Assembly: GCA_019117065.1 (NCBI GenBank)
Contig: DXAK01000049.1
Span: 1-64,000, forward strand
DNA length: 64,000 nucleotides
Origin: Candidatus Mediterraneibacter pullicola
GTDB taxonomy: Bacteria; Bacillota; Clostridia; Lachnospirales; Lachnospiraceae
Direction: 5' to 3'
Both the position numbers and the translations under genes were made by a program. Under the pieces are notes generated by a model. The model saw only the letters and a program-made list of their open reading frames with translations. It had not been told where the DNA came from and made no database searches. Shown in pieces: positions 12,720 to 43,004 of the stretch (positions within the stretch are counted from its first letter, which is position 1; the number at the start of each line of letters is the position of its first letter).

Positions 12720-12761
12720 ACTACAATTTTTAAAACTATTTTTAATCAGGAGGATCCTACC

Positions 12762-13199
12762 ATGACTTTAGGAACAAAAATCGTATTTATTGCCGCTTTG
12801 ATCTTAAGCATCATCATTCCTTTCGGTTATTACCTGCTTGGGAAGGAAAAATCACGCAAACGCTACAAACGCGCGATCGGCTCCAATGTATTTTTCTTCT
12901 TCGGAGCTTTTGTGATAGCATCAATCATGCTGCTTGGCGGCCCGGACGTACAAGCCGCTGAATCTGCCGCATCTGATTCCGGCTTTGCCACAGGGCTTGG
13001 ATATCTGGCGGCAGCCCTCGTCACAGGCCTTTCCTGTATCGGCGGCGGTATCGCTGTTGCAAGCGCGGCAAGCGCGGCTCTTGGAGCAATCAGTGAAGAT
13101 TCCAGCGTACTGGGTAAATCCCTCATCTTTGTAGGACTCGCAGAAGGCGTATGCCTGTACGGACTAATTATCTCCTTCATGATATTAGGAAATCTGTAA
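12762..13199 (+). CDS. ntpK: V-type ATPase subunit K (c-ring proteolipid)
   Basis: A 145-residue hydrophobic protein. The C-terminal half is a helical hairpin: a glycine-rich helix (TGLSCIGGGIAVASAAS) and a helix with the ion-binding Glu in VGLAEGVCLYGL. The N-terminal half adds two more hydrophobic segments without a carboxylate, so each subunit has one ion site. The Gln and Ser/Thr residues that accompany the Glu in known Na+-binding rings are not evident, so I infer H+ coupling, with modest certainty. AGGAGG precedes the start; the gene follows subunit I after 42 bases. Confidence 0.88.
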   Translation: MTLGTKIVFIAALILSIIIPFGYYLLGKEKSRKRYKRAIGSNVFFFFGAFVIASIMLLGGPDVQAAESAASDSGFATGLGYLAAALVTGLSCIGGGIAVASAASAALGAISEDSSVLGKSLIFVGLAEGVCLYGLIISFMILGNL

Positions 13200-13252
13200 C
13201 ACCAGTCAGCCGTGCGGGAATCCGCGCAGACAAACGGAGAAAGAGGTTCACA

Positions 13253-13561
13253 ATGAAAATGTATCTTATCAGTGATAATGTAGACACCTACACTGGCATG
13301 CGCCTCGCAGGTGTTGACGGAGTCGTAGTTCATGAGCGCGACGAACTGAAAAAAGCTCTCGAAGACGTGCTTGCGGACAAAACCGTAGGCATTGTCCTTC
13401 TGACTGAGAAATTCGGTCGGGAATTCCCTGATATCATCGATACCTTCCGTCTGGAACGCAAGATGCCTCTCCTCGTGGAGATCCCGGACAGACACGGAAC
13501 CGGCCGTCAAAAGGACTTTATCACATCATATATCACGGAAGCCATCGGGTTGAAGCTGTAA
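13253..13561 (+). CDS. ntpG: V-type ATPase subunit F (central shaft)
   Basis: A 102-residue protein with the compact Rossmann-like layout of subunit F, which pairs with subunit D in the central rotor shaft. Typical features are the start (MYLISDNVDTYTGMRLAGV), the VGIVLLTEKF strand and a C-terminal helix. The start at 13253 was chosen because it follows AACGGAGAAAGAGG; an upstream in-frame ATG would overlap subunit K and has no ribosome site. The symbol follows E. hirae, where NtpG is the F-type shaft subunit. A 281-base gap with a nested inverted repeat follows it. Confidence 0.85.
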   Translation: MKMYLISDNVDTYTGMRLAGVDGVVVHERDELKKALEDVLADKTVGIVLLTEKFGREFPDIIDTFRLERKMPLLVEIPDRHGTGRQKDFITSYITEAIGLKL

Positions 13562-13579
13562 TTCCGCCCAGCCTATAAT

Positions 13580-13714
13580 GTCTGTCGTATTCTGTATCCT
13601 CTGCGGACTCTCTCCCGCTTGGGGAAAAACGCAGCGGTACATAAGACCGCGCAATACGCGGTCTTATGTACCGGCGTTTTTCACAGTCCTTATCGGACAC
13701 AGAATACGACAGAC
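13580..13714. repeat. 135-bp nested inverted repeat inside the V-ATPase operon
   Basis: Outer arms GTCTGTCGTATTCTGT (13580-13595) and its exact complement (13699-13714) enclose an inner, nearly perfect stem. AAAAACGC(A)GCGGTACATAAGACCGCG (13625-13651) faces CGCGGTCTTATGTACC plus GGCGTTTTT (13657-13681) across a CAATA loop. The segments between the outer and inner arms pair only partly. It holds no gene. The inner stem followed by TTTTT resembles an intrinsic terminator, so it could attenuate transcription between subunits F and E. The terminal arms also resemble a MITE. No target-site duplication is obvious. Confidence 0.85.
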
Positions 13715-13842
13715 CCGCAGCCGGAACTACAAGCAATAAGATATGCTTGCATCAGAAAAGGTATTTTTTAATCAAAAGCGGTATGCGTCAACCGGCAGAG
13801 ATATATTTTAATCAAACAGAAAACGTAAAGGAGGTATTCCTC

Positions 13843-14436
13843 TTGACAGTAGAAGAAAAAATTGCTCATCTGAAGACTACATCTATGGAACAGGCCCGGG
13901 CAGAGGGAAACGCCATCATCGACTCTCACCGCGAAGCTCTTGAAAAAGTCCTTGAGGATCACAAGGCGGAAGCCCTGCGCCAGTCCGAGACACGCATCAA
14001 GGCAGAGACGACCAATGCGAAGCTTTCTCTGAATCAGGCGTCTGCAAAGTCCCAGCTTGAGATCAAACGCCGTCAGGGAAAAGTCCAGCAGGAGCTGAAA
14101 GATAAAGTATTTAAAGAGGCCTTAGAGCTTGTGAAGGATTACATGAAAACAGAAGCCTACGATGATTTTCTCGTAAAATGTATCCGTAACGCAGAACGTT
14201 TCGCAGGGGATGAGGCTCTGATTGTCTATATCAATCCGTCCGACGAGAAAAGACGCCCTGATCTGGAAGACGCTACAGGTATTCACCTGACTATCAGTGC
14301 GGAAGACTTCATCGGAGGGATCCGTGCGGTCATTCGCAGCAGGAACATTCTGATCGACAATTCCTTCCGGACACAGCTGCGCAATGAGTATGACAAATTT
14401 ATCTTTTTGGGAGGTGACGGCAATGCCAGCGCTTAA
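13843..14436 (+). CDS. ntpE: V-type ATPase subunit E (peripheral stalk)
   Basis: A 197-residue protein. A long charged coiled coil (about 1-95) pairs with the G/H-type subunit, and a C-terminal globular part includes the LIVYINPSDE and GGIRAVI segments typical of subunit E. The start is a TTG at 13843, chosen because AAAGGAGG lies ten bases upstream and because coiled-coil homology begins there; upstream in-frame ATGs fall near or inside the inverted repeat. Its last 14 bases overlap the start of subunit A. The stalk it forms holds the A3B3 head against rotation. Confidence 0.88.
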   Translation: MTVEEKIAHLKTTSMEQARAEGNAIIDSHREALEKVLEDHKAEALRQSETRIKAETTNAKLSLNQASAKSQLEIKRRQGKVQQELKDKVFKEALELVKDYMKTEAYDDFLVKCIRNAERFAGDEALIVYINPSDEKRRPDLEDATGIHLTISAEDFIGGIRAVIRSRNILIDNSFRTQLRNEYDKFIFLGGDGNASA

Positions 14437-16195
14437 AACCGGAAAAATATACGGGATCAACGGGCCCGTCATCTACTTGAAAGGAAATACTGGATTCCGT
14501 ATGTCAGAAATGGTCTATGTGGGCGAAGAACAGCTAGTCGGCGAAGTCATTGCTCTGGACAAAGACATGACAACCATTCAGGTATACGAAGAGACATCTG
14601 GTCTCTGCCCCGGCGAAACCGTAACCGCAAGCGGAAGCCCTGTGTCTGTCACGCTTGCTCCGGGCATCCTGAATAACATTTTCGACGGTATCGAAAGACC
14701 TCTGGAGCGCATCGCAGATTCGGCAGGCGCCTTTATTACCCGTGGAGTGAGTGTAGACTTTCTTGACAGGAAAAAGAAATGGCAGACTCACATTACAGTG
14801 CAGAAAGGACAGTATCTCCACGGAGGGGACATCATAGCGGAAGTCCCTGAAACCCATGCCATCGTACACAAATGTATGGTTCCTCCGGATCTGGAAGGCA
14901 CAGTGGTCAGCGCCGTACCGGATGGGGATTATACCATCGAGGAGACACTCGTAACGCTGAAACTTCAGGACGGTTCGGAAAAAAAGCTGACCATGACGCA
15001 GCGCTGGCCCATCCGCACACCAAGGCCGACGCACCACCGTTTTCCCGCGTCTGTTCCACTTATAACGGGACAGCGTATCATTGATACAATGTTCCCCATC
15101 GCCAAGGGAGGCACCGCCGCTATCCCCGGTGGATTCGGAACTGGTAAGACCATGACACAGCATCAAATCGCAAAATGGGCGGACGCCGACATTATTATCT
15201 ATATCGGCTGCGGCGAGCGCGGGAACGAGATGACACAGGTGCTGGAAGAGTTCGGTGAGCTGACCGATCCAAAGACAGGCAATCCCCTGATGGATAGAAC
15301 CACACTGATCGCAAATACATCCAACATGCCCGTGGCTGCCCGCGAAGCAAGCATTTACACCGGGCTTACACTGGCGGAATATTACCGCGACATGGGCTAT
15401 GACGTAGCGATCATGGCGGATTCTACCTCAAGATGGGCAGAGGCTTTGCGCGAGCTGTCCGGCCGTCTGGAAGAGATGCCCGCGGAGGAAGGATTCCCCG
15501 CATATCTGGCATCCCGCCTGTCTGCTTTCTATGAGCGAGCCGGCATGATGCACAACCTAAACGGTACAGACGGATCCGTGACCATCATCGGCGCGGTATC
15601 CCCGCAGGGCGGTGATTTCTCTGAGCCTGTCACCCAGAATACGAAACGATTTGTGCGCTGTTTCTGGGGTCTGGACAAAAGCCTCGCCTACTCCAGACAT
15701 TTCCCGGCTATCCACTGGCTCACCAGTTACAGCGAATATTTGAACGATTTAAGCCACTGGTATCAGGACAATGTATCCCAGCAGTTTGTGGATTACAGAA
15801 ACCGCCTGATGGCGCTTCTCAATCAGGAAAGCAGCCTTCTGGAGATCGTAAAACTGATCGGAAGCGACGTACTCCCTGACGATCAAAAGCTAGTGCTGGA
15901 AATCGCGAGGGTCATCCGCCTCGGTTTCCTGCAGCAGAACGCATTTCACAAGGATGATACTTGTGTCTCCATGGAGAAGCAGTTCCTCATGATGGACACC
16001 ATCCTTTATCTTTATAAACAGGCGCGCACCCTCGTCACGATGGGACACCCCATGTCCGTGCTGAAAGCGGAAAATATCTTCGACCGCGTCATTGCGATCA
16101 AATATGACGTGCCTAATGACCGGCTTGAGATGTTCGCCCAGTATCACAGAGACATTGACGCATTCTATCAGAGAGTGCTCGAGAAAAACGCGTAA
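14423..16195 (+). CDS. ntpA: V-type ATPase catalytic subunit A
   Basis: A 590-residue catalytic subunit. The N-terminal beta-barrel is followed by the A-type non-homologous insert (about 110-190) that separates it from F1 beta. The Walker A motif GGFGTGKT lies near residues 236-243, where many relatives have GPFGSGKT. The GERGNE catalytic-Glu segment and the Walker B strand ([17 protein letters not shown]) follow. Length is typical. The start at 14423 is preceded by GGGAGGTG and overlaps subunit E by 14 bases. With subunit B it forms the A3B3 hexamer that hydrolyses or makes ATP. Confidence 0.97.
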
Positions 16196-16209
16196 GGAGG
16201 ACCGTGATT

Positions 16210-17595
16210 ATGTCAATAGAATATTTAGGCTTAAGCAGCATTAACGGCCCTCTCATTGCTCTTGAGGGCATACAGGACGCGTTCTATGATGAGATCGTAG
16301 AATTTGTTGTCGATGGAAATGAACGCAAGATCGGGCGTATCGTAGAGATTTACGAAGACAAAGCCGTCATTCAGGTTTTTGAGGGCTCTGAAAATATGTC
16401 CCTTAAAAATACCCACACCAAACTGACCGGGCACCCCTTGGAGATCGCTCTCTCCCCAGATATGCTGGGGCGTACCTTCAACGGTATCGGTCAGCCCATC
16501 GATGATCTAGGACCGATTGTCTCCACGCTGAAACGGGATGTAAACGGGCTTCCCCTAAACCCGGTGCGCCGCGAATATCCCCGCAACTATATCCACACCG
16601 GCATCTCTGCCATCGACGGACTGACAACCTTGATCCGCGGGCAGAAGCTGCCGATATTCTCGGGGAACGGTCTTCCCCACGACCAGCTGGCCGCGCAGAT
16701 CGTAAAGCAGGCATCCCTCGGGGAAAATTCCGATGAGAAATTCGCCATCGTGTTCGCCGCCATGGGCGTAAAACACGACGTCGCCGACTTTTTCCGCAAT
16801 ACGTTTGAGGAAAGCGGCGTTGCGGATCATGTTGCCATGTTCCTGAATCTGGCAAACGACCCTGTGGTAGAGCGTCTAATCACACCGAAAGTCGCTCTGA
16901 CCGTGGCGGAGTACCTTGCATTCGAGCAGAACATGCACATCCTGGTCATCCTAACGGATATGACTTCCTTCGCCGAGGCAATGCGTGAAGTCTCCTCTTC
17001 AAAGGGCGAGATCCCCAGCCGTAAAGGTTATCCGGGATATCTGTACAGTGAGCTTGCCACCATATATGAGCGCGCAGGCATCGTTCAAGGCGTGGACGGC
17101 TCTGTGACCCAGCTCCCCATCCTGACAATGCCCAACGACGACATCACTCATCCCATCCCCGACCTGACGGGCTATATCACGGAAGGGCAGATCGTGCTTG
17201 ACCGTCCTTTGCATGGGCAGTCCATCTATCCACCCATCAACATCCTGCCCTCCCTCTCTCGTCTAATGAAGGACGGTATCGGAGCCGGATACACAAGAGA
17301 GGACCATCAGGATCTGGCGAACCAGCTTTTCTCCGCCTACGCAAAGGTAGGAGACGCCAGAAACCTTGCCTCCGTTATCGGTGAGGACGAACTGTCTCCC
17401 ATAGATAAGAAATATCTGGAATTTGGAAAAGATTTTGAAGAAAGATATATCGGTCAGGGGCAGAACGAAAACCGCAGTATGGAGGAGACGCTGGACCTTG
17501 GCTGGGAGCTGCTTGGAAGACTTCCGAAGGAAGAGCTCGACCGGGTGGATACGAAAATATTGGAGAAATATTATAAACCAATGGAGGAAGAGTAA
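16210..17595 (+). CDS. ntpB: V-type ATPase regulatory subunit B
   Basis: A 461-residue non-catalytic partner of subunit A. It has the F1-alpha/V-B fold, with a degenerate P-loop region ([13 protein letters not shown]) in place of a Walker A, and the conserved [17 protein letters not shown] stretch near the catalytic interface that supplies the arginine finger. The start at 16210 was preferred over the GTG at 16204 because AAGGAGG is nine bases away instead of three. It directly follows subunit A. After it the operon is interrupted by a VOC-fold gene before subunit D. Confidence 0.96.
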
Positions 17596-17784
17596 TCATC
17601 GGCGGCTGTATTATTATTTTCGGAGGATAGTAACAATTCCATATACAGCACCCTCTTTCTGTCATTAGTTTAGGGGCGGTGGCAGTAATATTATACTATG
17701 CGGTATCTGCGCTATAAATAAACCGATACTCAAATATTGGGTTTAAAAATACCCTAATATCAGAAGATGAAGAATGGAGATTGT

Positions 17785-18168
17785 ATGAAGATCGAACACA
17801 TTGCGATGTATGTAAATAATTTGGAAAATGTAAAAAATTTTTTTGTAAATTATTTTAATGCTTCCGCAAATAATGGATATCACAATCGGACAACAAGCTT
17901 CCGATCCTATTTCTTGACATTTACGAACGGGGCAAGACTGGAGATCATGTCCAGACCCCAAATGGACGACAACGAAAAGACTGTCGCCCGGACAGGATAT
18001 ATACATCTTGCCTTCAGCGTAGGAAGTAAAGAACAGGTGGATGCTCTGACTGCCCGTCTTCAAAAGGACGGCTACGAGGTGATCAGCGGGCCGCGCACGA
18101 CCGGGGACGGCTACTATGAAAGCTGTATCATCGGACCTGAGGGCAACCAGATTGAAATTACAGTCTGA
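17785..18168 (+). CDS. VOC-fold (glyoxalase/dioxygenase-like) protein
   Basis: A 127-residue protein of the vicinal-oxygen-chelate superfamily with two beta-alpha-beta-beta-beta modules. Metal-ligand positions are visible: His of IEHIAMYV (residue 4), Glu of ARLEIMS, His of GYIHLAFSV and the C-terminal Glu of NQIEITV, the set used by glyoxalase I and relatives. The function could be lactoylglutathione lyase-like, epimerase or antibiotic-resistance type; the sequence does not decide. It sits between subunits B and D of the V-ATPase with A+T-rich DNA upstream, an unusual position suggesting a later insertion. The ribosome site (ATGGAG) is modest. Confidence 0.85.
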   Translation: MKIEHIAMYVNNLENVKNFFVNYFNASANNGYHNRTTSFRSYFLTFTNGARLEIMSRPQMDDNEKTVARTGYIHLAFSVGSKEQVDALTARLQKDGYEVISGPRTTGDGYYESCIIGPEGNQIEITV

Positions 18169-18237
18169 CGCCGCCGTTTCGTCTATATGTGATTCAGGCT
18201 ATACATCACCTAACTATGGATTGAAAGGAGGTATTTT

Positions 18238-18873
18238 ATGGATCCTCGCACATTTCCCACAAAAGGCAATCTGATGCTGGCGAAGAACTCTCTTGCTCTC
18301 GCAAAGCAGGGATATGACCTGATGGATAAAAAAAGAAATATTCTGATTCGTGAACTGATGGATCTGATCGATGAGGCGCGTAGTATTCAAGAGGAGATCG
18401 ATACAACCTTCACCTATGCCTATCAATGTCTCCAGCGCGCCAATATCGAAAACGGGATCAGTAACGTAGAGCTTCTCGCCTACACGGTACCTATCGAAAA
18501 TTCTATCACCATCCAGACGAGAAGTATTATGGGAACGGAAATCCCCCATGTGAAATATGTCCCGGACGCAGGAAAACCAACTTACGCTTTCAGTACCACA
18601 CGGGAATCTATCGACAAGGCAAGGGAAGCTTTTCGCAAGGTGAAGGATCTGACCGTGAAGCTGTCCATGGTGGAAAACGCCGCCTACCGTCTGGCAAGCA
18701 ATATTAAAAAGACACAGAAGCGGGCGAACGCGCTTCAGAATATCACGATTCCCATGTACTCCGATCTTGTGTACACCATCACAAATGCTTTGGAGGAAAA
18801 AGAAAGGGAAGAATTTACAAGACTTAAGGTCATAAAGAGAATGAAGCAGAAAAAGGAAAAACGCTCGGCATAA
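18238..18873 (+). CDS. ntpD: V-type ATPase subunit D (central shaft)
   Basis: A 211-residue protein made of two long antiparallel helices (about 1-75 and 125-205) with a central beta-containing segment, the standard layout of the rotor axle. The start region FPTKGNLMLAKNSLALAKQGYDLMDKKR-like segment is highly characteristic, and the KKTQKRANALQNI segment marks the C-terminal helix. AAAGGAGG precedes the start. It is the last gene of the V-ATPase operon and is followed by an intrinsic terminator. It pairs with subunit F to transmit rotation to the c-ring. Confidence 0.95.
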   Translation: MDPRTFPTKGNLMLAKNSLALAKQGYDLMDKKRNILIRELMDLIDEARSIQEEIDTTFTYAYQCLQRANIENGISNVELLAYTVPIENSITIQTRSIMGTEIPHVKYVPDAGKPTYAFSTTRESIDKAREAFRKVKDLTVKLSMVENAAYRLASNIKKTQKRANALQNITIPMYSDLVYTITNALEEKEREEFTRLKVIKRMKQKKEKRSA

Positions 18874-31401: not shown

Positions 31402-33095
31402 CAGACTGTAGACAAAGTTGGTGCTGGAGCTTAGCTCCAGCACCACTCTTTTTGCCAAAATATAAACTCCCATACTTTTTTATAAAGGATAAAAAAGGAT
31501 CTTGATTTTTTGTCCTGCCCTTCCCTTACATCCAGAATCTTTGCCAGCTTTTTCAGATTCATGCACGCAAAGGTCAGCCCGGCTTTCATCTTCATCCGGG
31601 CGTTGCCGATATATTGTGTGTATCGAAATCCATGCTGTTCTTTTGCGCTTCCGAACAATCTCTCAATAGTTTCTTTTCTCAGCATATAAATCTCTTTGTT
31701 CCCGAGTGTATAGCGGATGTCCTCGCTGGCTTCCAGATACTCTTCCCAAATGTGTCGGGAGATCATTTTTTCATGCTCTTTGCTTTCTGTGCATTCGGAA
31801 AGATAAGGACAGTTTTTACATATGCGTTTATCGCTCTTGTATTCTTTGTACCCCTCCCGGTTCGTTGTCCGATAAGTAAGGATCTGATCCGCCGGACAGA
31901 TATAGCAGTCATAGTATTCATCATAGACATACTCATATTTCTTAAAGAACCCATCTTTTGTCATGGGTCTTTTATACGGAAACAAAGGCTGTATCCCGTC
32001 CTTTAACAATTCTCTGGCGATTGCCGGAGTCTTGTATCCGGCATCCAATACCATCATCTTCATATCCAGATCTTTTATTTCGTCATACAAAGGCTTCCAT
32101 GTCCTGCTGTCATGTTCATTTCCTGGATGCACCGTATAGCCTAAGATCCACCCATGCTTGTCACATGCCGTCTCTATGCTGTATGCAAAAACATGTTTAT
32201 GTTCGCCTTTTCGGAACCAGCCGCTTTCCGGATCTGAAGTACTGCATTTTTGTGTCTTCGCCCCTTCCGAGATTTCATCCGGGGAACTGTCACCACCAGA
32301 AACGCCACCGCCTGCTGATGGCGGTGTATTTGAATCATCCTTCTTTTCTTTTAAAGGCTTCTTCCCGTGATTTTTACGGTCTTCATTGATTTCTTTTTTC
32401 AACTCTTCCTCATACCATAATGCCTCTTGAGATGCGATCCTCTTTCTCATTTTTTTACTGTTCGCACAGGCTTTTACATGGGTAGAATCTACAAACACAG
32501 TGGATGTATCTACCAGATGGAATTTCATGCATTGTTCCAGGATATGGGAAAAGATCTGTTCAAACAGATCCGTATCCTTAAAACGGCGGGTATAGTTTTT
32601 CCCAAAAGTAGAAAAGTGAGGAACCGGATCCAGCATATCCAGACCGAGAAACCAGCGGTAAGCTACATTCACTTCGATTTCTTTTATCGTCTGCCGCATA
32701 CTTTTAATGCCATAGAGATACTGGATAAAAGGGATTTTGATCAGCATCACCGGATCCATGCTCGGTCTTCCGTTATCTGCACAATACTTGTCTTCTACAA
32801 GATCGTAGATAAAGTTCCAGTCAATTGCCCGGTCAATCTTTCGGAGCATGTGATCCTTTGGTACCATGTCATCCATACTGAACATCATCATTTGTTCTCT
32901 TTTTTTATCGGCATCTCTTGTCATCATAAGCGGAACCTCCTTATAGGATAATTATACCATGTACGGAGAATGCACCGCTTAATTTTCGAGTTGATAAAAG
33001 GAATTTTTTCTTGATAAAAAGGGGGAAGATATTTGGAATGTTGATAACTATAGAAGAAAAGCCCCGGCGTAACCGGGGACTTTGTCTACAGTCTG
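31402..33095 (-). mobile_element. IS1182-like insertion sequence, complete
   Basis: 17-bp perfect terminal inverted repeats CAGACTGTAGACAAAGT (31402-31418) and its complement (33079-33095) bound a single transposase gene. Just inside the left end a perfect 11-bp hairpin (GGTGCTGGAGC with GCTCCAGCACC) is followed by CTCTTTTT on the plus strand. Inside the right end CCCCGG/CCGGGG is followed by a T-run on the minus strand. Both would stop transcription entering from outside. No target duplication is evident. Perfect hairpins also lie immediately outside both ends (31374-31401 and 33098-33122). Confidence 0.9.
31431..32927 (-). CDS. IS1182-family transposase
   Basis: A 498-residue DDE transposase. 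The N-terminal region (SMDDMVPKDHMLRKIDRAID) is the DUF772-like start of this family. Catalytic residues are Asp in FVDSTHVKA, Asp in VLDAGYKTPA and Glu in RKETIERLFGSAKEQHG. A Cys cluster (CKNCPYLSEC) lies between the last two. A low-complexity Gly/Ser/Pro/Asp insert (about residues 200-235) is unusual but in frame. The reading frame is intact, so the element may be active. The stop codon lies inside the left-end hairpin. Confidence in the family is high, in the exact subgroup lower. Confidence 0.93.
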   Translation of the reverse strand: MMTRDADKKREQMMMFSMDDMVPKDHMLRKIDRAIDWNFIYDLVEDKYCADNGRPSMDPVMLIKIPFIQYLYGIKSMRQTIKEIEVNVAYRWFLGLDMLDPVPHFSTFGKNYTRRFKDTDLFEQIFSHILEQCMKFHLVDTSTVFVDSTHVKACANSKKMRKRIASQEALWYEEELKKEINEDRKNHGKKPLKEKKDDSNTPPSAGGGVSGGDSSPDEISEGAKTQKCSTSDPESGWFRKGEHKHVFAYSIETACDKHGWILGYTVHPGNEHDSRTWKPLYDEIKDLDMKMMVLDAGYKTPAIARELLKDGIQPLFPYKRPMTKDGFFKKYEYVYDEYYDCYICPADQILTYRTTNREGYKEYKSDKRICKNCPYLSECTESKEHEKMISRHIWEEYLEASEDIRYTLGNKEIYMLRKETIERLFGSAKEQHGFRYTQYIGNARMKMKAGLTFACMNLKKLAKILDVREGQDKKSRSFFILYKKVWEFIFWQKEWCWS

Positions 33096-33149: not shown

Positions 33150-33902
33150 ATGAAGCATCTTGCCAAGGGAAATCCGGCTGACAAAGAATACATAGATATC
33201 AACAGGTGCCGGTGGAACCTGATCACGGGAAAGGGAATGCTTGAACGCTACCCAAGCGGCGGCTTTAAGATTATAGGCGATCTGATTCACAGGCATAATA
33301 AGGGTGATGAATACATCGCGCAGGACGGCCAGACACATGCCATACAAGAGTACTCCGGCCAGACCGGAAAGGGCAGATATGTCTGCGGATATATTGAGCT
33401 GGAAGAAAAGGACTGCTTTGTGCGCGTGCTCAGAAGGAAAAGAAGCCCTTTACTGGGTCTTCTGGCGCTTCTGGCGTTTTTGGCAGCTATTTTCTTTGCC
33501 GGTCTTTGGTTAGGACAAAAGGAAGAAAAGCCTTATCTGGACGAGACCGCGATTGCGTACAATATAGAAGGATTCGAAAACAAGGATCCAGAGCAGCTTA
33601 TGCTGCCGGGAATAGAGGAAATCCGTGTTGCTGAAAATGAAACAAAAGTTGAGTATGCGCTTTTCAATCCAAAGGGAAATATGTGCAATATCCAGTATAT
33701 TATAAAACTGACGGATAGTGGAGAAACCATATACTCCTCGAATCAGGTCAGTCCCGGATATGCCATTACCGAGTTTGACCTAAACCGCACATTTGAGAAG
33801 GGCGAGTATCCCATCACAGTAGAGATGAGAACCTATGACATCGGGGACGGGGAAACAAAGTACAACAGCGGTGTCATGGACGCAAAACTGATTGTCGAAT
33901 AG
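33150..33902 (+). CDS. Single-pass membrane protein, unknown (paralogue A)
   Basis: A 250-residue protein not recognised as a named family. The N-terminal ~95 residues are soluble and basic, then one membrane helix (about 101-123). A ~120-residue extracytoplasmic domain follows, beginning IAYNIEGFENKDPEQLMLPG and ending with a beta-rich VMDAKLIVE. This C-terminal domain is clearly homologous to that of the next gene (shared KDPEQ, NPxGNxCxxQYxI and two-strand KGEYxIxV patterns). AAAGGAGTGG precedes the start. The gene begins only 55 bases after the insertion sequence, so its native promoter may have been separated. Part of a three-gene cassette. Confidence 0.72.
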   Translation: MKHLAKGNPADKEYIDINRCRWNLITGKGMLERYPSGGFKIIGDLIHRHNKGDEYIAQDGQTHAIQEYSGQTGKGRYVCGYIELEEKDCFVRVLRRKRSPLLGLLALLAFLAAIFFAGLWLGQKEEKPYLDETAIAYNIEGFENKDPEQLMLPGIEEIRVAENETKVEYALFNPKGNMCNIQYIIKLTDSGETIYSSNQVSPGYAITEFDLNRTFEKGEYPITVEMRTYDIGDGETKYNSGVMDAKLIVE

Positions 33903-33912
33903 GAGAGCGATT

Positions 33913-34671
33913 ATGCAGTACAAATACATAGAGATTGCTGATGATGTAAAATCATATAAGATAGACGGCCAGACACTGCATTACCTGAAAAACTACGAAG
34001 AAGCAGTGGGTGGCGCGGAGATTTCATCCTATCTTTTTGGGGATGTGAAATCCGCAAAAAAGATAGGGGATAAGAAATCTACTCTTGATTTAGATAATTA
34101 TACTTTATCCGTTTTTCCATTGAAGTCCAAATTGAATTTCTTTGAGAAAATTGTCGGATATGTGCCGTGTATAGATGCGGAAGGGACGTCCGGCTGGCTC
34201 CGGATCGTTGGGAAATCAAAAGCGAAAATCCTTTCCCTGCTGCTGATGTTACTGCTGCTGGCAGGTGCGGCGGTTTATTTTCTCACGAACCGCGGCCCCG
34301 ATCTGGACGATGCGGCCGTTGCCTATGAAATGCCCGATTACATGGTCAATAAAGACCCGGAGCAGGTTCTTATTCCGGGATATGAAACCATAACAGTGGA
34401 TAAGGACAATATACACTCGGAAACAATTCTGGTGAACCCCGAGGGAAATCTCTGCTACATGCAGTATGAGATCCGCCTGACAGATACACAGGAAGTGATC
34501 TATCAGTCCGGTTTCTTAGAGCCCGGAAAAGCCATTCCCGGATTTGACCTAGACAGTGAGGTTGATAAGGGAGAGTATGACATAGAGGTGGTATTGAACA
34601 CATTTGACATAAACGAATATGAGCAGCCCTTAAATGGAGGTGTCATAGATGCTACGCTTCAAGTTGAGTAG
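33913..34671 (+). CDS. Single-pass membrane protein, unknown (paralogue B)
   Basis: A 252-residue protein with the same plan as its upstream neighbour: cytoplasmic N-terminal domain (about 1-100), membrane helix (about 107-128) and an outer domain whose strands match paralogue A. The N-terminal domains of the two proteins are not obviously alike, so only the outer domain is shared. The start at 33913 has AGGAGAG nearby. It overlaps the next gene by 23 bases. Function unknown; the arrangement suggests two inner-domain variants presenting a common outer domain, perhaps interacting with the lipoprotein encoded next. Confidence 0.72.
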   Translation: MQYKYIEIADDVKSYKIDGQTLHYLKNYEEAVGGAEISSYLFGDVKSAKKIGDKKSTLDLDNYTLSVFPLKSKLNFFEKIVGYVPCIDAEGTSGWLRIVGKSKAKILSLLLMLLLLAGAAVYFLTNRGPDLDDAAVAYEMPDYMVNKDPEQVLIPGYETITVDKDNIHSETILVNPEGNLCYMQYEIRLTDTQEVIYQSGFLEPGKAIPGFDLDSEVDKGEYDIEVVLNTFDINEYEQPLNGGVIDATLQVE

Positions 34672-35170
34672 TGTATTATTGGCGTTGATGCTCTCCATAG
34701 TCTTATCCGGGTGTTCAAAGACGGCCGGAGACACAATAGAAACAGTAGAAAATGGACAGACGTTTACTATGGATCAGATGTCCTTTACCCCAGAAGAGGA
34801 AGGAAGCGCGGCTATCATAGCACCGGACAGCCGCGTCCAGTATTACAATTATTATCCGGAATATGATGGGTACGAATACTACTTTGTTAAAGGAACTTTG
34901 AAAAACGAAGAAGATCAGAAAAAAGAGATCTCATCTTACTATGTAGAAAGCGAAACGTCAGGCAAACGGGCGGATGCAAAGCTGATTGTTACGAACGAAG
35001 ATAAGAGTGATTTTGTAAAGGGCATAGAAGCCCATGCGGAGGTAGATTTCTTTTTGATTACTTTTGTTGAAAAAGGGGGAGACAAACCGGATTCTTTCCG
35101 CATTTTTGGCGGGTCCAAAGGCGATGACACATGGGAAAATGAGATTCAGTACAGAACGGAATCGGAATAA
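34649..35170 (+). CDS. Small secreted lipoprotein, unknown
   Basis: A 173-residue lipoprotein: basic start, hydrophobic helix and lipobox (VLSGC, Cys about residue 22). The mature part is acidic and predicted mostly beta, with a Tyr-rich stretch (YYNYYPEYDGYEYYFVKG). It resembles generic DUF4352-like or immunoglobulin-like lipoprotein domains in layout, but I cannot assign a family. The start lies within the previous gene, showing translational coupling. Last gene of the three-gene cassette; no clear terminator follows. Confidence 0.7.
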   Translation: MLRFKLSSVLLALMLSIVLSGCSKTAGDTIETVENGQTFTMDQMSFTPEEEGSAAIIAPDSRVQYYNYYPEYDGYEYYFVKGTLKNEEDQKKEISSYYVESETSGKRADAKLIVTNEDKSDFVKGIEAHAEVDFFLITFVEKGGDKPDSFRIFGGSKGDDTWENEIQYRTESE

Positions 35171-35371
35171 CCCGTAGATGTTTTTGGACTGAAAAGCCGG
35201 ATTTTGAACTTCTTTTTTACTATAATATGGTTGATGTGACAAAGAAATATCGTGGAATTCCCCGTTTTGAATATGACGGGCGAAAGTTCAAAGTCTCTCT
35301 TCTTCTTGGAACAGTCCGGGAGGGCGGAGAAAAACCGGGGAAAGGCAGAGGGGAGAGAGCAATGAAATTCC
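35171..35371. other. Non-coding stretch before pfkA
   Basis: Two hundred bases with no well-supported gene. A 53-codon open frame (35227-35388) starts without a ribosome site and ends inside the pfkA promoter; I do not consider it a gene. No terminator is evident for the preceding lipoprotein gene. Confidence 0.45.
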
Positions 35372-35434
35372 TTGTTCCGCCCCGATAAATAGAGTATAAT
35401 AATAAGCAGTCGGAGAATGCCGGCTGCTTATTTT
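35372..35434 (+). promoter_or_regulatory. pfkA promoter with leader hairpin
   Basis: TTGTTC (35372-35377), a 17-base spacer and perfect TATAAT (35395-35400). Transcription would start inside or just before a hairpin AATAAGCAGTCGG / CCGGCTGCTTATT (35400-35431) that ends in TTTT. This is either an early attenuator or a 5'-end stabilising stem. The pfkA start lies 47 bases further on. Confidence 0.6.
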
Positions 35435-35480
35435 GATCTGGGTATAAGCAAAGCCGGAAGGATAAAGGAGGAAGAGCGAT

Positions 35481-36557
35481 ATGTTACGAATTGGAATGCT
35501 GACAAGCGGTGGAGACTGTCAGGCGCTAAACGCGGCGATGCGCGGGGTTGTAAAGGGCATCTGCTCTAAGCGCAGTGATGTTGAGATCTACGGCTTTAAA
35601 GATGGATACAAGGGGCTTATATATGCGGACTTCAGTATGCTTACATCCAAAGATTTTTCGGGAATCCTGACAAGGGGAGGAACGATTCTCGGCACATCGC
35701 GGCAGCCGTTTAAGTTGATGAGGGTGCCGGACAAAGACGGGATTGATAAGGTTGAGGCGATGAAGCATACATACCATAAGCTGAATTTGAACTGCCTTGT
35801 CATCTTAGGCGGCAATGGAACACATAAGACGGCGAATCTTTTGAGAGAAGAGGGATTAAATGTTATCACCCTGCCTAAAACTATCGACAACGATCTCTGG
35901 GGGACAGAGATGACCTTCGGATTCCAGAGTGCGGTGGACATTGCGACGGATACCATCGACCGTATCCATACGACAGCAACATCTCATAGCCGCGTGTTTA
36001 TCATTGAAGTCATGGGCCATAAGGTAGGACATGTTACCCTGCACGCAGGCATTGCGGGCGGAGCGGATATTATCCTCCTGCCCGAGATTCCCTATGATAT
36101 TAAATCAATCACAAAGGTGATTGAGGGACGCTCCAAAGCGGGAAAGCCGTTTACCATCCTTGCTGTGGCGGAGGGCGCCATCTCCAAAGCGGACGCCAAG
36201 CTGAAAAAAAAGGAGTACAAAGAGAAACTGGCACGGCGCAAATATCCGTCTATCGCGTATGAACTAGCTGAGAAGATTCAGAAAGAGACGGACAAAGAAG
36301 TTCGCATCACTGTACCGGGACACACACAGCGGGGCGGAGACCCTTGTGCTTATGACCGTGTCTTTGCCACAAGAGTTGGAGCGAAGGCGGCGGAATTGAT
36401 TTTGGAAGAGAAGTACGGATATATGGTCGCTATGAAAGGCGGTGAGACGACAAAAGTGCCCCTTGAAGAAGTGGCCGGCAAACTAAAGACCGTAGATCCT
36501 AAATGTGGTCTGATCAAAGAAGCTAGGATGATTGGCATTAGCTTTGGAGATGAGTAA
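35481..36557 (+). CDS. pfkA: 6-phosphofructokinase (clostridial group-III-like)
   Basis: A 358-residue phosphofructokinase. It phosphorylates fructose 6-phosphate in glycolysis. The N-terminal MLTSGGDCQALNAAMRG loop binds the phosphate donor. The donor motif is GGNGTHKTAN: Gly at the E. coli 104 position (ATP type) but Asn at position 103. The catalytic motif PKTIDNDLWGT carries Lys at the 124 position as in PPi-dependent and mixed-group enzymes. A fructose-6-P contact (MGHKVGHVTLHAG) and PGHTQRGG follow. The combination Gly104/Lys124 is typical of ATP-using group III enzymes, but PPi use cannot be excluded. AAAGGAGG precedes the start. It leads the dnaX-ybaB-recR set. Confidence 0.93.
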   Translation: MLRIGMLTSGGDCQALNAAMRGVVKGICSKRSDVEIYGFKDGYKGLIYADFSMLTSKDFSGILTRGGTILGTSRQPFKLMRVPDKDGIDKVEAMKHTYHKLNLNCLVILGGNGTHKTANLLREEGLNVITLPKTIDNDLWGTEMTFGFQSAVDIATDTIDRIHTTATSHSRVFIIEVMGHKVGHVTLHAGIAGGADIILLPEIPYDIKSITKVIEGRSKAGKPFTILAVAEGAISKADAKLKKKEYKEKLARRKYPSIAYELAEKIQKETDKEVRITVPGHTQRGGDPCAYDRVFATRVGAKAAELILEEKYGYMVAMKGGETTKVPLEEVAGKLKTVDPKCGLIKEARMIGISFGDE

Positions 36558-36586
36558 GAAACTTAGAGGTAAAAGAGGTGTGATAC

Positions 36587-38176
36587 ATGTCATATACGGC
36601 ACTTTACAGAAAGTTCCGCCCCGCGGAGTTTGCGGATGTCAAGGGGCAGGATCATATCATTAAGACATTACAGAATCAGATTAAGGCGAACCGTATTGGG
36701 CATGCGTATCTATTCTGTGGAACAAGGGGAACGGGAAAAACCACTGTGGCAAAGATATTTGCAAAAGCGGTAAACTGTGAACACCCGGTGGATGGAAGCC
36801 CCTGCGGGGAATGTAAGATGTGCAGATCTATTGCAGCGGGGACTTCTATGAATGTGATCGAGATCGACGCCGCGTCCAACAACGGCGTGGATAATATCAG
36901 GGAGATCCGGGAAGAAGTGGCGTACCGTCCGACGGAAGGGCGGTACAAAGTCTACATCATCGACGAGGTGCATATGCTCTCCATAGGAGCTTTCAACGCA
37001 CTTCTTAAAACTCTCGAAGAACCGCCAGAATATGTGATCTTCATTCTGGCGACCACGGAGGTGCACAAGATCCCCATTACCATCTTGTCCCGGTGCCAGC
37101 ACTATGATTTTAAACGTATCAGTATCGGGACGATTACAGACCGGATGAGAGAACTGATGGATGCAGAGCATGTTGAAGTAGAGGAGCGGGCTCTTAAGTA
37201 TATCGCGAAGACGGCGGACGGTTCCATGCGTGATGCCTTAAGTCTCCTTGACCAGTGTATCGCCTTCTATCTGGGGCAGCGGCTCACTTACGACAATGTG
37301 CTGGAGGTGCTGGGCGCGGTGGACACGGATGTATTCAGCCAGCTTTTGCGCAAAGTGATCGTAAGAGATGTGTCCGGCGTGCTGGATGTGGTGGATGATC
37401 TTGTCATGCAGGGGCGGGAACTGAGCCAGCTTTCTGCTGATTTTACATGGTATCTGCGGAACTTGCTTCTCGTAAAGACTTCTGATAATATAGAGGATGT
37501 TCTGGATGTATCGACAGAAAATATGGAGCAGCTCAAGGAAGAAGCGCAGATGGTGGAAGCAGATATGCTGTTCCGCTATATCCGCATTTTCTCTGAGCTG
37601 TCGGGACAGTTAAGATATGCTACACAGAAGCGTGTTATGCTGGAAGTGGCGCTTATTAAGCTGTGTACCCCTGCCATGGAGCCGGATCAGGATTCCCTTC
37701 TAGAGCGCGTACGAGCTGTGGAAGAAAAGGTAGAGCGGGGCATTGTGCCTGAAGGGAATCCGGCAGAGCGGATGGCCTATGCAAACGGTGACAGCGGGGA
37801 AGGCGCCGGACATTCACCGGGCGAAGCCGGGAAAAGACCTGAACTTCCCAGTGCGGTCCCAGAAGATGTGCAGGAGGTTGTCAAGAACTTCCGGTCCATC
37901 GCAGGGGAGGCTTCTGGGATGATCCGAAGTTATCTGAAGAAGGCAAGGCTAAGCCTCGGCGGTGACAACCGCTTGCTTATCGTGCTCCCCGACGCCTTGG
38001 CGTCGGGGGTGGTCGGAAGAGAGGATCATGTAGAGGAGCTTGAGAAGCTGATCGAAGAGAGGATTGGCAAGAAGGTAGAAGTGGAAGTCCGCCATGTGGA
38101 GGAAGGAAGGCATTTTGAGGATACATTTGTTGATATAGAACAGAAGATCAATATGGAGATAACAGTGGAGGATTAG
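36587..38176 (+). CDS. dnaX: DNA polymerase III subunit gamma/tau
   Basis: A 529-residue AAA+ clamp-loader ATPase. Walker A GTRGTGKT (residues 45-52), a four-Cys zinc site (C..HPVDGSPCGECKMC), Walker B (YIIDEVHML), sensor 1 (ILATTEVHKI) and the SRC arginine-finger motif are all present. The C-terminal part (about 370-529) is a charged linker plus a domain of the tau type. I looked for the A AAA AAG slippery site used in E. coli to make gamma and did not find one. A 22-bp perfect palindrome lies in the 3' part. It is tightly followed by ybaB and recR, a conserved bacterial order. Confidence 0.97.
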   Translation: MSYTALYRKFRPAEFADVKGQDHIIKTLQNQIKANRIGHAYLFCGTRGTGKTTVAKIFAKAVNCEHPVDGSPCGECKMCRSIAAGTSMNVIEIDAASNNGVDNIREIREEVAYRPTEGRYKVYIIDEVHMLSIGAFNALLKTLEEPPEYVIFILATTEVHKIPITILSRCQHYDFKRISIGTITDRMRELMDAEHVEVEERALKYIAKTADGSMRDALSLLDQCIAFYLGQRLTYDNVLEVLGAVDTDVFSQLLRKVIVRDVSGVLDVVDDLVMQGRELSQLSADFTWYLRNLLLVKTSDNIEDVLDVSTENMEQLKEEAQMVEADMLFRYIRIFSELSGQLRYATQKRVMLEVALIKLCTPAMEPDQDSLLERVRAVEEKVERGIVPEGNPAERMAYANGDSGEGAGHSPGEAGKRPELPSAVPEDVQEVVKNFRSIAGEASGMIRSYLKKARLSLGGDNRLLIVLPDALASGVVGREDHVEELEKLIEERIGKKVEVEVRHVEEGRHFEDTFVDIEQKINMEITVED

Positions 38177-38177
38177 T

Positions 38178-38531
38178 ATGGCTAAGCGTGGAGGATTCCC
38201 GGGCGGAGGGATGCCGGGAAATATGGCAAATCTGATGAAGCAGGCGCAGCGCATGCAGCGCCAGATGGAGGAACAGCAGAAAGAACTTGAAGCGAAGGAA
38301 TTTACAGCGGCAGCAGGCGGCGGAGCAGTCGAAGTGACTGTATCCGGCAAGAGGGAAGTCTTAAAAGTAAAATTAGCTGAGGAAGTCGTTGATCCTGAGG
38401 ATATTGAGATGCTTGAGGATCTGATCGTGGCAGCGGCTAATGAAGCGCTCCGTCAGGTGGATGAAGAGACCGGCAGCGCAATGTCCAAGCTCACGGGCGG
38501 ACTTGGCGGCGGGATACCGGGGATGTTCTGA
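38178..38531 (+). CDS. ybaB: YbaB/EbfC family nucleoid-associated protein
   Basis: A 117-residue dimeric DNA-binding protein. The N-terminal Gly/Met-rich stretch ([20 protein letters not shown]) and the [21 protein letters not shown] core are typical of the family. Its exact role is uncertain; it coats DNA and influences transcription. It starts one base after the dnaX stop and overlaps recR by one base, the universal dnaX-ybaB-recR arrangement, so all three are co-translated. Confidence 0.95.
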
Positions 38532-39127
38532 TGGATTATTACAGTAATCAGATTAGCCGGCTTATTGAAGAATTTTCGAGACTGCCGGGGATTGGAAGCA
38601 AGTCCGCACAGAGGCTGGCGTTCCATATCATCAATATGCCGGTAGACCAGGTGGAAGGTCTGGCCCGCTCTATTGTGGAAGCGCGGGAAAATGTCAGATA
38701 CTGCGGGGTGTGCTGTACTCTGACCGACAAAGATGTATGCCCGATCTGCAGCAATCCGGACAGGGATAAAAAGACGATCATGGTCGTGGAAACGCCGAGA
38801 GATCTGGCGGCATATGAGAAAACAGGGAAGTACAACGGTGTGTATCACGTGCTTCACGGGGCGATTTCGCCGATGCTCGGGATCGGGCCGGGGGATATCC
38901 GTCTGAAAGAATTGATGGAACGTCTCCAAGGAGATGTGGACGAGGTGATTATCGCGACCAACTCCAGCCTTGAAGGCGAAACCACAGCGATGTATATCAG
39001 CAAGCTCATCAAACCTGTGGGCATCAAGGTGAGCAGGATTGCCAGCGGGGTTCCCGTGGGCGGTGATCTGGAGTACATTGATGAGGTTACGCTTCTGCGC
39101 GCTTTGGAAGGCAGGACAGAACTGTAA
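38531..39127 (+). CDS. recR: Recombination mediator RecR
   Basis: A 198-residue protein of RecFOR recombination repair. The N-terminal helix-hairpin-helix ([14 protein letters not shown]) is followed by a C4 zinc finger ([16 protein letters not shown], about 57-72). A Toprim domain with VVETPRDL and GDIRLKEL comes next, and a Walker-B-like C-terminal part ([13 protein letters not shown]). It helps load RecA on gapped DNA with RecO. Length is exactly typical. Its ATG overlaps the ybaB stop. Confidence 0.98.
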
Positions 39128-40525: not shown

Positions 40526-40568
40526 CAAGACAGCAATAAGCGTTTTTATATTTAAGGAGGAACACGAA

Positions 40569-41222
40569 ATGAAATTCTTTATCGACACAGCAAATGTAGA
40601 GGATATTAGAAAGGCGAATGATATGGGGGTGATCTGTGGGGTTACGACAAACCCATCTCTCATTGCCAAGGAAGGCCGTGTATTTGAGGAGGTAATCGCA
40701 GAGATCGCATCCATCGTTGACGGACCTATCAGCGGAGAGGTGAAAGCTACAACAACCGACGCGGAGGGCATGATAAAAGAGGGACGAGAGATCGCGAAGA
40801 TCCATCCGAACATGGTTGTTAAGATCCCCATGACAGTGGAAGGACTTAAGGCAGTGAAAGTCCTTGCAGCTGAGGGAATCAAGACAAATGTCACACTGAT
40901 ATTCACCGCGAATCAGGCTCTTCTGGCGGCAAGAGCGGGCGCTGCATATGTTTCTCCTTTCCTTGGACGCCTGGATGACATTTCTGTGAGAGGAGTCGAC
41001 CTGATCTCGGAGATTGCAGAGATCTTTGCAGTAGCGGGCATTGATACTGAGATCATTGCTGCCAGCGTGCGCAACACAATACACGTTACAGACTGTGCGC
41101 TGGCGGGAGCTGATATAGCTACAGTTCCGTACAAGGTAATTGAGCAGATGACGCATCATCCGCTGACAGATGCGGGAATCAAAAAATTCCAAGAGGACTA
41201 TAGGGCGGTCTTCGGTGAATAA
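40569..41222 (+). CDS. tal: Transaldolase, short (TalC/FSA-like) type
   Basis: A 217-residue TIM-barrel of the small transaldolase / fructose-6-phosphate aldolase subfamily. Visible are the opening [14 protein letters not shown], the Asn of [12 protein letters not shown], the Schiff-base Lys in VVKIPMT and the FLGRLDD loop. It transfers dihydroxyacetone units in the non-oxidative pentose phosphate pathway; sequence alone does not exclude FSA activity. TAAGGAGG precedes the start. Next genes encode both halves of transketolase, so the operon provides a complete non-oxidative pentose cycle for nucleotide precursor supply. Confidence 0.94.
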
Positions 41223-41241
41223 CTTATACAAGGAGGCAATC

Positions 41242-42078
41242 ATGGACAAGTTAAAGCTGATGAAAACGGCAAATGAGATCCGCAAGAGTATTGTAACAGC
41301 AGTTCATAGCGCCAAGGCAGGGCATCCGGGCGGATCACTGTCTGCGGCAGATATCTTTACATATTTATATTTTGAGGAGATGAATATTGATCCTGCGGAT
41401 CCCAAAAAAGCAGATCGCGACCGTTTTGTCCTGTCGAAAGGACATACGGCTCCGGGACTCTACTCTGCTTTGGCACAGAGAGGATATTTCCCGAAGGAAG
41501 ATCTTAAGACACTCCGTCACACAGGATCCTATCTTCAGGGACATCCTGACATGAAACATATTCCGGGCGTGGATATGTCGTCAGGATCTCTCGGACAGGG
41601 AATCTCCGCTGCGGTGGGCATGGCCATCGCGGCAAAGCTCTCAGGAGCGGATTACAGAGTGTATACTATGCTCGGCGACGGAGAGATCCAAGAGGGACAA
41701 GTGTGGGAGGCGTCTATGCTGGCGGCGCATAAGAAACTGGACAACCTTGTAGTCATTGTGGACAACAACAATCTTCAGATCGACGGCGCAATCGACGAGG
41801 TCAACTCGCCATATCCCATCGACAAGAAGTTTGAGGCGTTCAATTTCCATGTGATCAATATAGATGGAAATGATTTTGATCAGATCGACGCTGCGTTTAA
41901 AGAGGCAAGGACAGTGAAGGGACAGCCTACGGCGATCATCGCCAAGACGCTCAAGGGCAAGGGAGTTTCCTATATGGAAGGTCAGGCAGGATGGCACGGA
42001 AAAGCTCCTAATGATGAAGAATATAAGATCGCTATGGAAGAACTGGAAAAGGCAGGTGAAGCGTTATGTCAGATGTAA
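41242..42078 (+). CDS. tktA: Transketolase, N-terminal (TPP-binding) subunit
   Basis: A 278-residue protein equal to the first domain of transketolase. It has the AGHPGGSLSAADI and SKGHTAPGLY segments and the thiamine diphosphate motif GDGEIQEG ... NNLQID. Split transketolases in Firmicutes and archaea use two polypeptides. Its C-terminal codons overlap the second subunit by 13 bases, so equal production is expected. It needs the neighbouring subunit for activity. AAGGAGG precedes the start. Confidence 0.95.
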   Translation: MDKLKLMKTANEIRKSIVTAVHSAKAGHPGGSLSAADIFTYLYFEEMNIDPADPKKADRDRFVLSKGHTAPGLYSALAQRGYFPKEDLKTLRHTGSYLQGHPDMKHIPGVDMSSGSLGQGISAAVGMAIAAKLSGADYRVYTMLGDGEIQEGQVWEASMLAAHKKLDNLVVIVDNNNLQIDGAIDEVNSPYPIDKKFEAFNFHVINIDGNDFDQIDAAFKEARTVKGQPTAIIAKTLKGKGVSYMEGQAGWHGKAPNDEEYKIAMEELEKAGEALCQM

Positions 42079-43004
42079 AAAAGATCGCGACAAGAGACAG
42101 TTACGGAAATGCGCTGGCGCAGCTTGGAACAGAGCATGAGGACGTGGTTGTGCTGGACGCTGATTTAGCGGCAGCGACAAAGACCGGTGTGTTTAAGAAA
42201 GCGCATCCAGAGCGCTTCATTGACTGCGGGATCGCAGAGAGCAATATGATGGGCGTGGCGGCAGGTCTTGCGGCGGCGGGAAAGGTTCCATTCGCAAGCT
42301 CGTTTGCCATGTTTGCGGCGGGGCGTGCATTTGAGCAGGTGCGAAACTCTATCGGATATCCCCATCTTAACGTAAAGATCGGCGCTACCCATGCCGGAAT
42401 CTCTGTGGGCGAAGACGGGGCAACCCACCAGTGCAATGAGGATATCGCGCTAATGCGCACGATCCCGGGCATGGTTGTCATCAATCCGTCCGATGATGTA
42501 GAAGCACAGGCGGCGGTGCGCGCGGCATATGAGCATGAGGGACCGGTGTACTTAAGATTCGGGCGTCTTGCCGTTCCGGTTATCAACGATAAGCCGGATT
42601 ACAAATTTGAGCTTGGAAAAGGCGTTGTGTTAAGAGAAGGGAAAGACGTGACGGTCATCGCCACGGGTCTGCCGGTAAACAACTGCCTTGAGGCGGCAGA
42701 AAAGCTGGCGGCAGATGGCATCGATGCTAAAGTTATCAACATCCATACCATCAAACCTCTGGATGAGGAGCTGATTGTTTCGGCGGCAAAAGAGACAGGG
42801 AAAGTCGTTACAGTTGAGGAGCATTCCGTTATCGGCGGACTGGGAAGCGCAGTGTGTGAAGTGCTCTCAGAGAAAGCTCCGACACGGGTGCTCAAAATAG
42901 GCGTGAACGATACCTTCGGCGAATCGGGACCGGCGGCAGAGCTGCTGAAAAAATACGGGTTAGATACAGACAGTATTTACGAGAAAGTGAAAGCATTTGT
43001 GTAA
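42066..43004 (+). CDS. tktB: Transketolase, C-terminal subunit
   Basis: A 312-residue protein with the pyrimidine-binding and C-terminal domains of transketolase. It has the catalytic-Glu region (DCGIAESNMMGVAAGLA), GATHAGISVGEDGATHQ and the C-terminal strand VITVEEHS-like segment. It completes the active site with the N-terminal subunit. Its stop codon overlaps the first base of the dispersed element described next. Symbols tktA/tktB are used for the two halves and do not mean the E. coli isozymes. Confidence 0.95.
   Translation: MSDVKKIATRDSYGNALAQLGTEHEDVVVLDADLAAATKTGVFKKAHPERFIDCGIAESNMMGVAAGLAAAGKVPFASSFAMFAAGRAFEQVRNSIGYPHLNVKIGATHAGISVGEDGATHQCNEDIALMRTIPGMVVINPSDDVEAQAAVRAAYEHEGPVYLRFGRLAVPVINDKPDYKFELGKGVVLREGKDVTVIATGLPVNNCLEAAEKLAADGIDAKVINIHTIKPLDEELIVSAAKETGKVVTVEEHSVIGGLGSAVCEVLSEKAPTRVLKIGVNDTFGESGPAAELLKKYGLDTDSIYEKVKAFV

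Follow-up and report, generated by a model that had tools for sequence, protein, structure and literature searches.

The pfk gene at 35481..36557 (+ strand) of the window, the 64,000-nucleotide stretch of Candidatus Mediterraneibacter pullicola DNA that was analysed, was found by translation of its open reading frame to encode a 358-aa protein of the PFK-A family of phosphofructokinases. Judged by its sequence, what sets the protein apart is the combination of Asn at position 103 with loss of Arg171, a trait of a whole clade that an earlier note on this DNA had half noticed. Our preferred reading, to which we assign a probability of about 0.58, is that the product is an active ATP- or GTP-dependent fructose 6-phosphate (F6P) kinase of the PFK-A family with a rearranged phosphate site.

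Residues were numbered by alignment to E. coli PfkA (NC_000913 pfkA). The Asn at 103, Gly at 104 and Lys at 124 described in the earlier note were confirmed, as Asn112, Gly113 and Lys133, and two further active-site changes that it had overlooked were found: position 108 is Thr117, and position 171, an Arg in E. coli, is His180. With coordinates calculated as 35481+3(n-1), the donor-site loop (codons 112-117, N G T H K T, equivalent to E. coli D103-G108) lies at 35814..35831, the Lys133 codon at 35877..35879 and the His180 codon at 36018..36020, all on the + strand. R72 (R74 in the window protein), T125, D127, D129, R162, M169, E222, R243, H249 and R252 were all kept; the catalytic base, D127, and the F6P ligands correspond to D136, R171, M178, E231, R275, H281 and R284 in the protein's own numbering. 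The match to Pfam PF00365 reached 343.4 bits, the cut-off being 30.9. An AlphaFold model built from a shallow alignment (80-92% identity) was of low confidence (mean pLDDT 63.7) and was drawn on for fold class alone, the metal and phosphate geometry discussed below being predicted from residues; its best PDB matches were PFK-A enzymes of both the ATP and the PPi types.

These residues were shared across 127 clade sequences, namely the window protein, 80 loci (the best 80 of 463 confirmed), 44 sequences from a class-level sample (44 of 46 matches at 54-72% identity, G225 and G154 being left out), Collinsella aerofaciens (64% identical to the window protein) and Parabacteroides distasonis (48%). 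The clade thus spans Lachnospiraceae, other families of the same class, Collinsella and Parabacteroides. N103, G104, K107, K124 and R72 were fixed in 127/127 sequences, position 41 was Tyr or Phe in 127/127, position 108 was Thr or Ser, and position 171 was His in 122 and Asn in 5. Purifying selection on the gene was strong, with a median pN/pS of 0.065 across 77 orthologues (gap-free comparison, at least 78% identity) and a median dN/dS of 0.017 in the 18 of them for which dS was measurable; N112, G113, K116, K133 and H180 did not vary among the 77. Since the Asn/Gly/Lys triplet at 103/104/124 was invariant throughout the clade and the gene is under such selection, the triplet is not a product of chance. 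A single branch separated the clade from all other sequences, with support of 100/99 in a 66-row tree and of 100/98 when 15 site columns were masked and the PPi outgroup was omitted. The trees omit six group III paralogues with lost catalytic residues (L167, L168, L171, L175, L180 and L184), which the residue counts include. The trees gave no firm branching order at the deep fork, where the canonical enzymes, the N103 clade and the D103 clade part, and no claim is made that the D103 clade is sister to the N103 clade. The annotated records of the Collinsella and Parabacteroides members both read 'ATP-dependent', as a broad sequence model would give, and no characterised clade member was found in open-licence PMC full text among the matches listed.

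The loss of D103 and R171 could instead mark a weak or non-catalytic paralogue that regulates the canonical enzyme within a hetero-oligomer, and a clade III enzyme of Pseudoclostridium thermosuccinogenes was inactive in the assays described in its report (PMC6543838). This reading seems very improbable. The base D127, T125, D129 and the F6P ligands R162, M169, E222, R243 and R252 were invariant in 127/127 clade sequences, with H249 being His in 122 and Tyr in 5, and together with the low pN/pS this argues against a decayed pseudoenzyme; the degenerate-looking group III paralogues L168, L171, L175, L180 and L184 have lost other residues. The residues that we take to form the canonical effector site (R54, D59, R154, E187 and K211) were mostly changed, R54 being kept in 2/127 sequences while D59 was replaced by Gly, R154 by His and E187 by Asp in 127/127. 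These changes make E. coli-like control by ADP and PEP unlikely for the clade enzymes.

The window protein passed NCBIfam NF002872 (ATP-dependent 6-phosphofructokinase; 370.4 versus a cut-off of 253), a broad model that was also passed by an Arthrobacter protein annotated as PPi-dependent. It did not pass TIGR02482 (canonical ATP PfkA; 278.8 versus 371.35), having K124 and N103 instead of G124 and D103, or TIGR02483 (mixed-substrate group III; 368.6 versus 430.55). The latter cut-off was also failed by three other clade members tested (L101, L186 and L187) and by two K124 proteins without N103 (L183 and L188), and was passed by one Streptomyces, one Arthrobacter and one D103-clade protein. Asp104, expected of a PPi-dependent PFK, is Gly113 here, and Ile108, expected of an ADP-dependent PFK-A, is Thr117. 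K124, a mark of clade III in the wider sense, is present; the N103 clade is well supported in the tree, and its K124 groups and canonical PfkA branch without a firm order at the deep fork. On these scores and residues the protein is best classed as a K124-bearing PFK-A that lies outside TIGR02483 by cut-off.

Three donor positions, 104, 124 and 108, are named in PMC12203962. Position 104 is described as Gly in ATP enzymes and as Asp, which blocks nucleotide binding, in PPi enzymes (PMC12203962, PMC11609450); Lys124 is shared by PPi enzymes and the Trypanosoma brucei ATP enzyme, and so is not an indicator by itself; and position 108 is Gly in all solved ATP structures and always larger in PPi enzymes (PMC12203962). 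At 104/124/108 the window protein has G/K/T, which is ATP-like, undecided and not ATP-like, respectively. The earlier note had read a mixed ATP/PPi signature: the residues are real, but G104/K124 is already known from clade III, where PMC6543838 associates it with ATP use, and K124 is not diagnostic of the donor. The Gly at 104, where PPi enzymes carry the blocking Asp, and the printed link between clade III G/K enzymes and ATP use favour a nucleotide donor, and it counts against ATP that two of the three published positions (K124 and Thr/Ser108) are not ATP-like.

The same two residues, K133 and Thr117, are PPi-like, and the enzyme would be a reversible PPi-dependent PFK if K124, together with the larger side chain at 108, seated PPi despite G104. 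We regard this as unlikely, as the protein lacks Asp104, which blocks ATP and fixes the register of PPi, and replacement of that Asp by Gly switched the donor of the Entamoeba histolytica enzyme from PPi to ATP, according to PMC11609450. The PPi-type PFKs of the same genome (NF010675/PRK14072) resemble the window protein in N103, K124 and Thr108, but are longer, at about 410 aa compared with 358 aa, and carry D104 and R171 where it has G104 and H171; one copy (L003) was 31% identical to it over residues 8-318. Use of another donor (ADP, GTP only or polyphosphate), or of another acceptor such as sedoheptulose 7-phosphate, is quite improbable. An ADP-using PFK-A was first reported in 2024, with Ile at 108 as its mark (PMC11609450), and position 108 is here neither Gly nor Ile. 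That cyanobacterial enzyme is, like the window protein, a short PFK-A with G104, formerly placed in group 3; its motif is GGDGSxxI, whereas that of the N103 clade is GGNG(T/S)xx(T/S), and the lack of Ile argues against ADP. Unchanged F6P ligands argue against another acceptor.

The inactive P. thermosuccinogenes enzyme, CDQ83_10650, shares K124 and G104 with the window protein, but clade III/group III enzymes have D/E103 and R171 where the window protein has N103 and H171. Its inactivity with ATP, GTP and PPi counts against the ATP reading, and ADP does not appear in the assay description (PMC6543838). That the window protein is of the same kind was considered and set aside: the Gly117/Lys137 numbering of CDQ83_10650 fits the D103-clade proteins L225-L227, in which G104 is residue 117, better than the window protein, in which it is residue 113. 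By residue numbering, with start codons inspected in some clade members, CDQ83_10650 is probably of the D103 kind.

Group III relatives with K124 were also sampled outside the clade (37-48% identical to the window protein), and those of the D103/G104/K124 type showed the reverse arrangement of arginines. D103/G104/K124 was found in 18 of 29 other loci compared (16 of the D103 clade plus the Ilyobacter and Pseudoalteromonas records); R171 was kept in 18/18 of these and R72 lost in 18/18. Two actinobacterial E103/K124 enzymes and two D104/K124 enzymes retained both. Trp occupied position 41 in both sampled D104/K124 enzymes (L182 and L183), which, set against the Tyr/Phe41 of the clade, favours a nucleotide donor. 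This argument is weak, since Trp41 was also present in the two actinobacterial E103/K124 enzymes, the Streptomyces type of which we take to be ATP-dependent. As a separate observation, seven class-level group III paralogues (L167, L168, L169, L171, L175, L180 and L184) had lost or altered catalytic residues, for example D127 replaced by Glu in L167, L169, L175 and L180, and may be pseudoenzymes or have new specificities.

Canonical ATP PfkA, as in E. coli and in the copy on contig C11 of the same genome, shares with the window protein PF00365, G104, the base D127, the F6P ligands and R72; in the latter, D103, G108, G124 and R171 are all replaced, and the effector-site residues are mostly lost. 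In E. coli PfkA, D103 reportedly serves Mg2+, and R72 and R171 the transition state, as Berger and Evans are said to have described in 1992. If the clade enzymes are active nucleotide-dependent kinases, Lys124 would hold the transferred or beta phosphate, standing in for the transition-state R171, now His or Asn; Mg2+ would do without the side chain of Asp103, being bound probably by D129 and the phosphates; and G104 would leave space for the alpha-phosphate of the nucleotide. The donor, the exchange of roles between K124 and R171 and the mode of metal binding are all put forward here as predictions. As the N103 clade keeps R72 without R171 and the D103 relatives keep R171 without R72, K124 may render one arginine dispensable; it does not force the loss of one, since the four sampled E103 or D104 enzymes with K124 retain both. 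A bolder proposal is tentative and rather unlikely. It would make the N103/H171 clade a catalytic class of PFK-A so far unrecognised, with K124 in place of R171, rearranged metal binding, and either a donor preference (for instance for ADP, for GTP alone or for both ATP and PPi) or an acceptor foreign to characterised group III enzymes.

The check for another pfk gene suggested by the earlier note brought the PF00365 genes of the genome to five, four of them besides the window pfk. The canonical ATP-type PFK passed TIGR02482 and has D103, G104 and G124, while three PPi-type PFKs passed NF010675 and have GGNDS and K124. The window pfk thus supplies an extra PFK, probably regulated differently from the canonical ATP-type enzyme. 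The genome also carries a single gene for an H+-PPase, two for PPDK that score above the curated cut-off, and one for a DHHA2-domain protein of the family II PPase type. This PPi economy, with one H+-PPase, two PPDK and three PPi-type PFK genes, is consistent with a PPi-dependent window enzyme; the presence of three PPi-type PFK genes already argues against it. The three PPi-type paralogues (L003-L005, on contigs C30, C21 and C3) lie in a genome of 2.25 Mb; L004 and L005 each adjoin closely similar glycosyltransferase-like genes, which suggests that their surroundings are a duplicated segment. The motif of the canonical PfkA (L001) is PGTIDLD, not PGTIDND.

Among 47 clade-bearing genomes, in which the other PFK genes were typed by place, score and length, the canonical ATP-type gene was present in 37 and absent in 10. 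Its absence from 10 genomes favours a nucleotide donor for the clade enzyme, as does G312 (96% complete), in which the clade gene was the only PF00365 match; the argument from G312 is weakened in that it is one genome, that two of 21 genomes in its family had no PF00365 match at all (true absence or assembly gaps), and that the search excludes PfkB-type kinases. Against the ATP reading, six of the 10 genomes carried a D103 group III gene, and seven clade genomes that were 99-100% complete had only the clade gene and the canonical ATP-type gene, a pattern also compatible with a PPi role. G146 and G046 (both 100% complete) had only a PPi-type gene besides the clade gene, its GGNDS being confirmed by sequence; these two genomes and G312 argue against a non-catalytic partner of the canonical enzyme. 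G131 had the clade gene, the canonical ATP-type gene and a D104 group III gene (L183). Genome co-occurrence, tried as a guide to the donor, was not decisive.

Downstream of pfk, after 29 bases, lie dnaX, ybaB and recR (36587..39127, + strand), followed by a transaldolase/FSA-family gene and a split transketolase gene (40563..43004, + strand) that form part of a block kept in close relatives. The order pfk-dnaX-ybaB-recR-lacI-tal-tktN-tktC was complete in 49 of the 80 loci compared, which are the best 80 of 463 confirmed, and was found with the window's upstream genes added in two more; dnaX followed pfk in 79 of these 80, some loci ending at a contig edge. Among 13 more distant loci, dnaX-ybaB-recR lay beside pfk only in three of the window's family (L234, L235 and L237, in the last of which pfk follows recR); a transketolase gene was nearby in one (L236) and the whole block in none, L228 being a 3.5-kb contig. 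The linkage of pfk to dnaX-ybaB-recR and the pentose phosphate block thus marks the family to which the window belongs and is no general trait of the clade. The block in close relatives, with its transaldolase-like and transketolase genes, could hint at sedoheptulose 7-phosphate as acceptor, but the TAL/FSA-family gene within it means that no kinase for that sugar phosphate is required, and the distant loci speak against it as well. A sedoheptulose pathway for want of transaldolase was ruled out, since this gene, the only TAL/FSA gene of the genome (40575-41210), lies inside the window. Its reading frame (40563-41222) carries the NCBIfam TIGR00875 name fructose-6-phosphate aldolase, with Glu and Phe at two FSA positions that we take to be Gln59 and Tyr131 in E. 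coli FSA; these residues would make the product a transaldolase.

The V-ATPase that the earlier note had placed in the same window was confirmed as a V/A-type ATPase cluster, five of whose subunits were checked (9736-18870). The proposed link to pfk did not hold, as the cluster lies about 16.6 kb upstream and pfk sits in the dnaX-ybaB-recR and non-oxidative pentose phosphate block. In the pfk leader, a 13-bp hairpin comes immediately after a TATAAT -10-like box (35395..35432, + strand); a consensus promoter scan gave no site at 35395..35432, and Rfam gave no match at 34900-36700. A stem of 12 or 13 pairs came directly after TATAAT in 41 of the 59 leaders with that box (81 leaders examined), and at several pairs both partners had changed, pair 3 from T-A to A-T, pair 5 from A-T to G-C, and pairs 6 and 13 from G-C to A-T. 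The hairpin may stabilise or attenuate the pfk-dnaX-ybaB-recR transcript. Further upstream are a DDE transposase gene whose reading frame is open (31431-32927) and three ORFs (33150-35170), the first and third without a Pfam or NCBIfam match and the second without an NCBIfam match. Among 80 relatives (the best 80 of 463), the first and second ORFs lay beside pfk in only 3 each and the third in only 2.

That groups with K124 have lost either R72 or R171, in reciprocal fashion, opens the way PFK stabilises its transition state to a direct mutational test, and the donor used at the PFK step sets the ATP yield and the reversibility of glycolysis. A full-length orthologue with at least 85% identity was present in 34 of the 36 other genomes sampled from the window's genus, the two without one being 86% (G003) and 79% (G017) complete. 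With this distribution, the enzyme is a standing component of sugar metabolism in these gut Lachnospiraceae.
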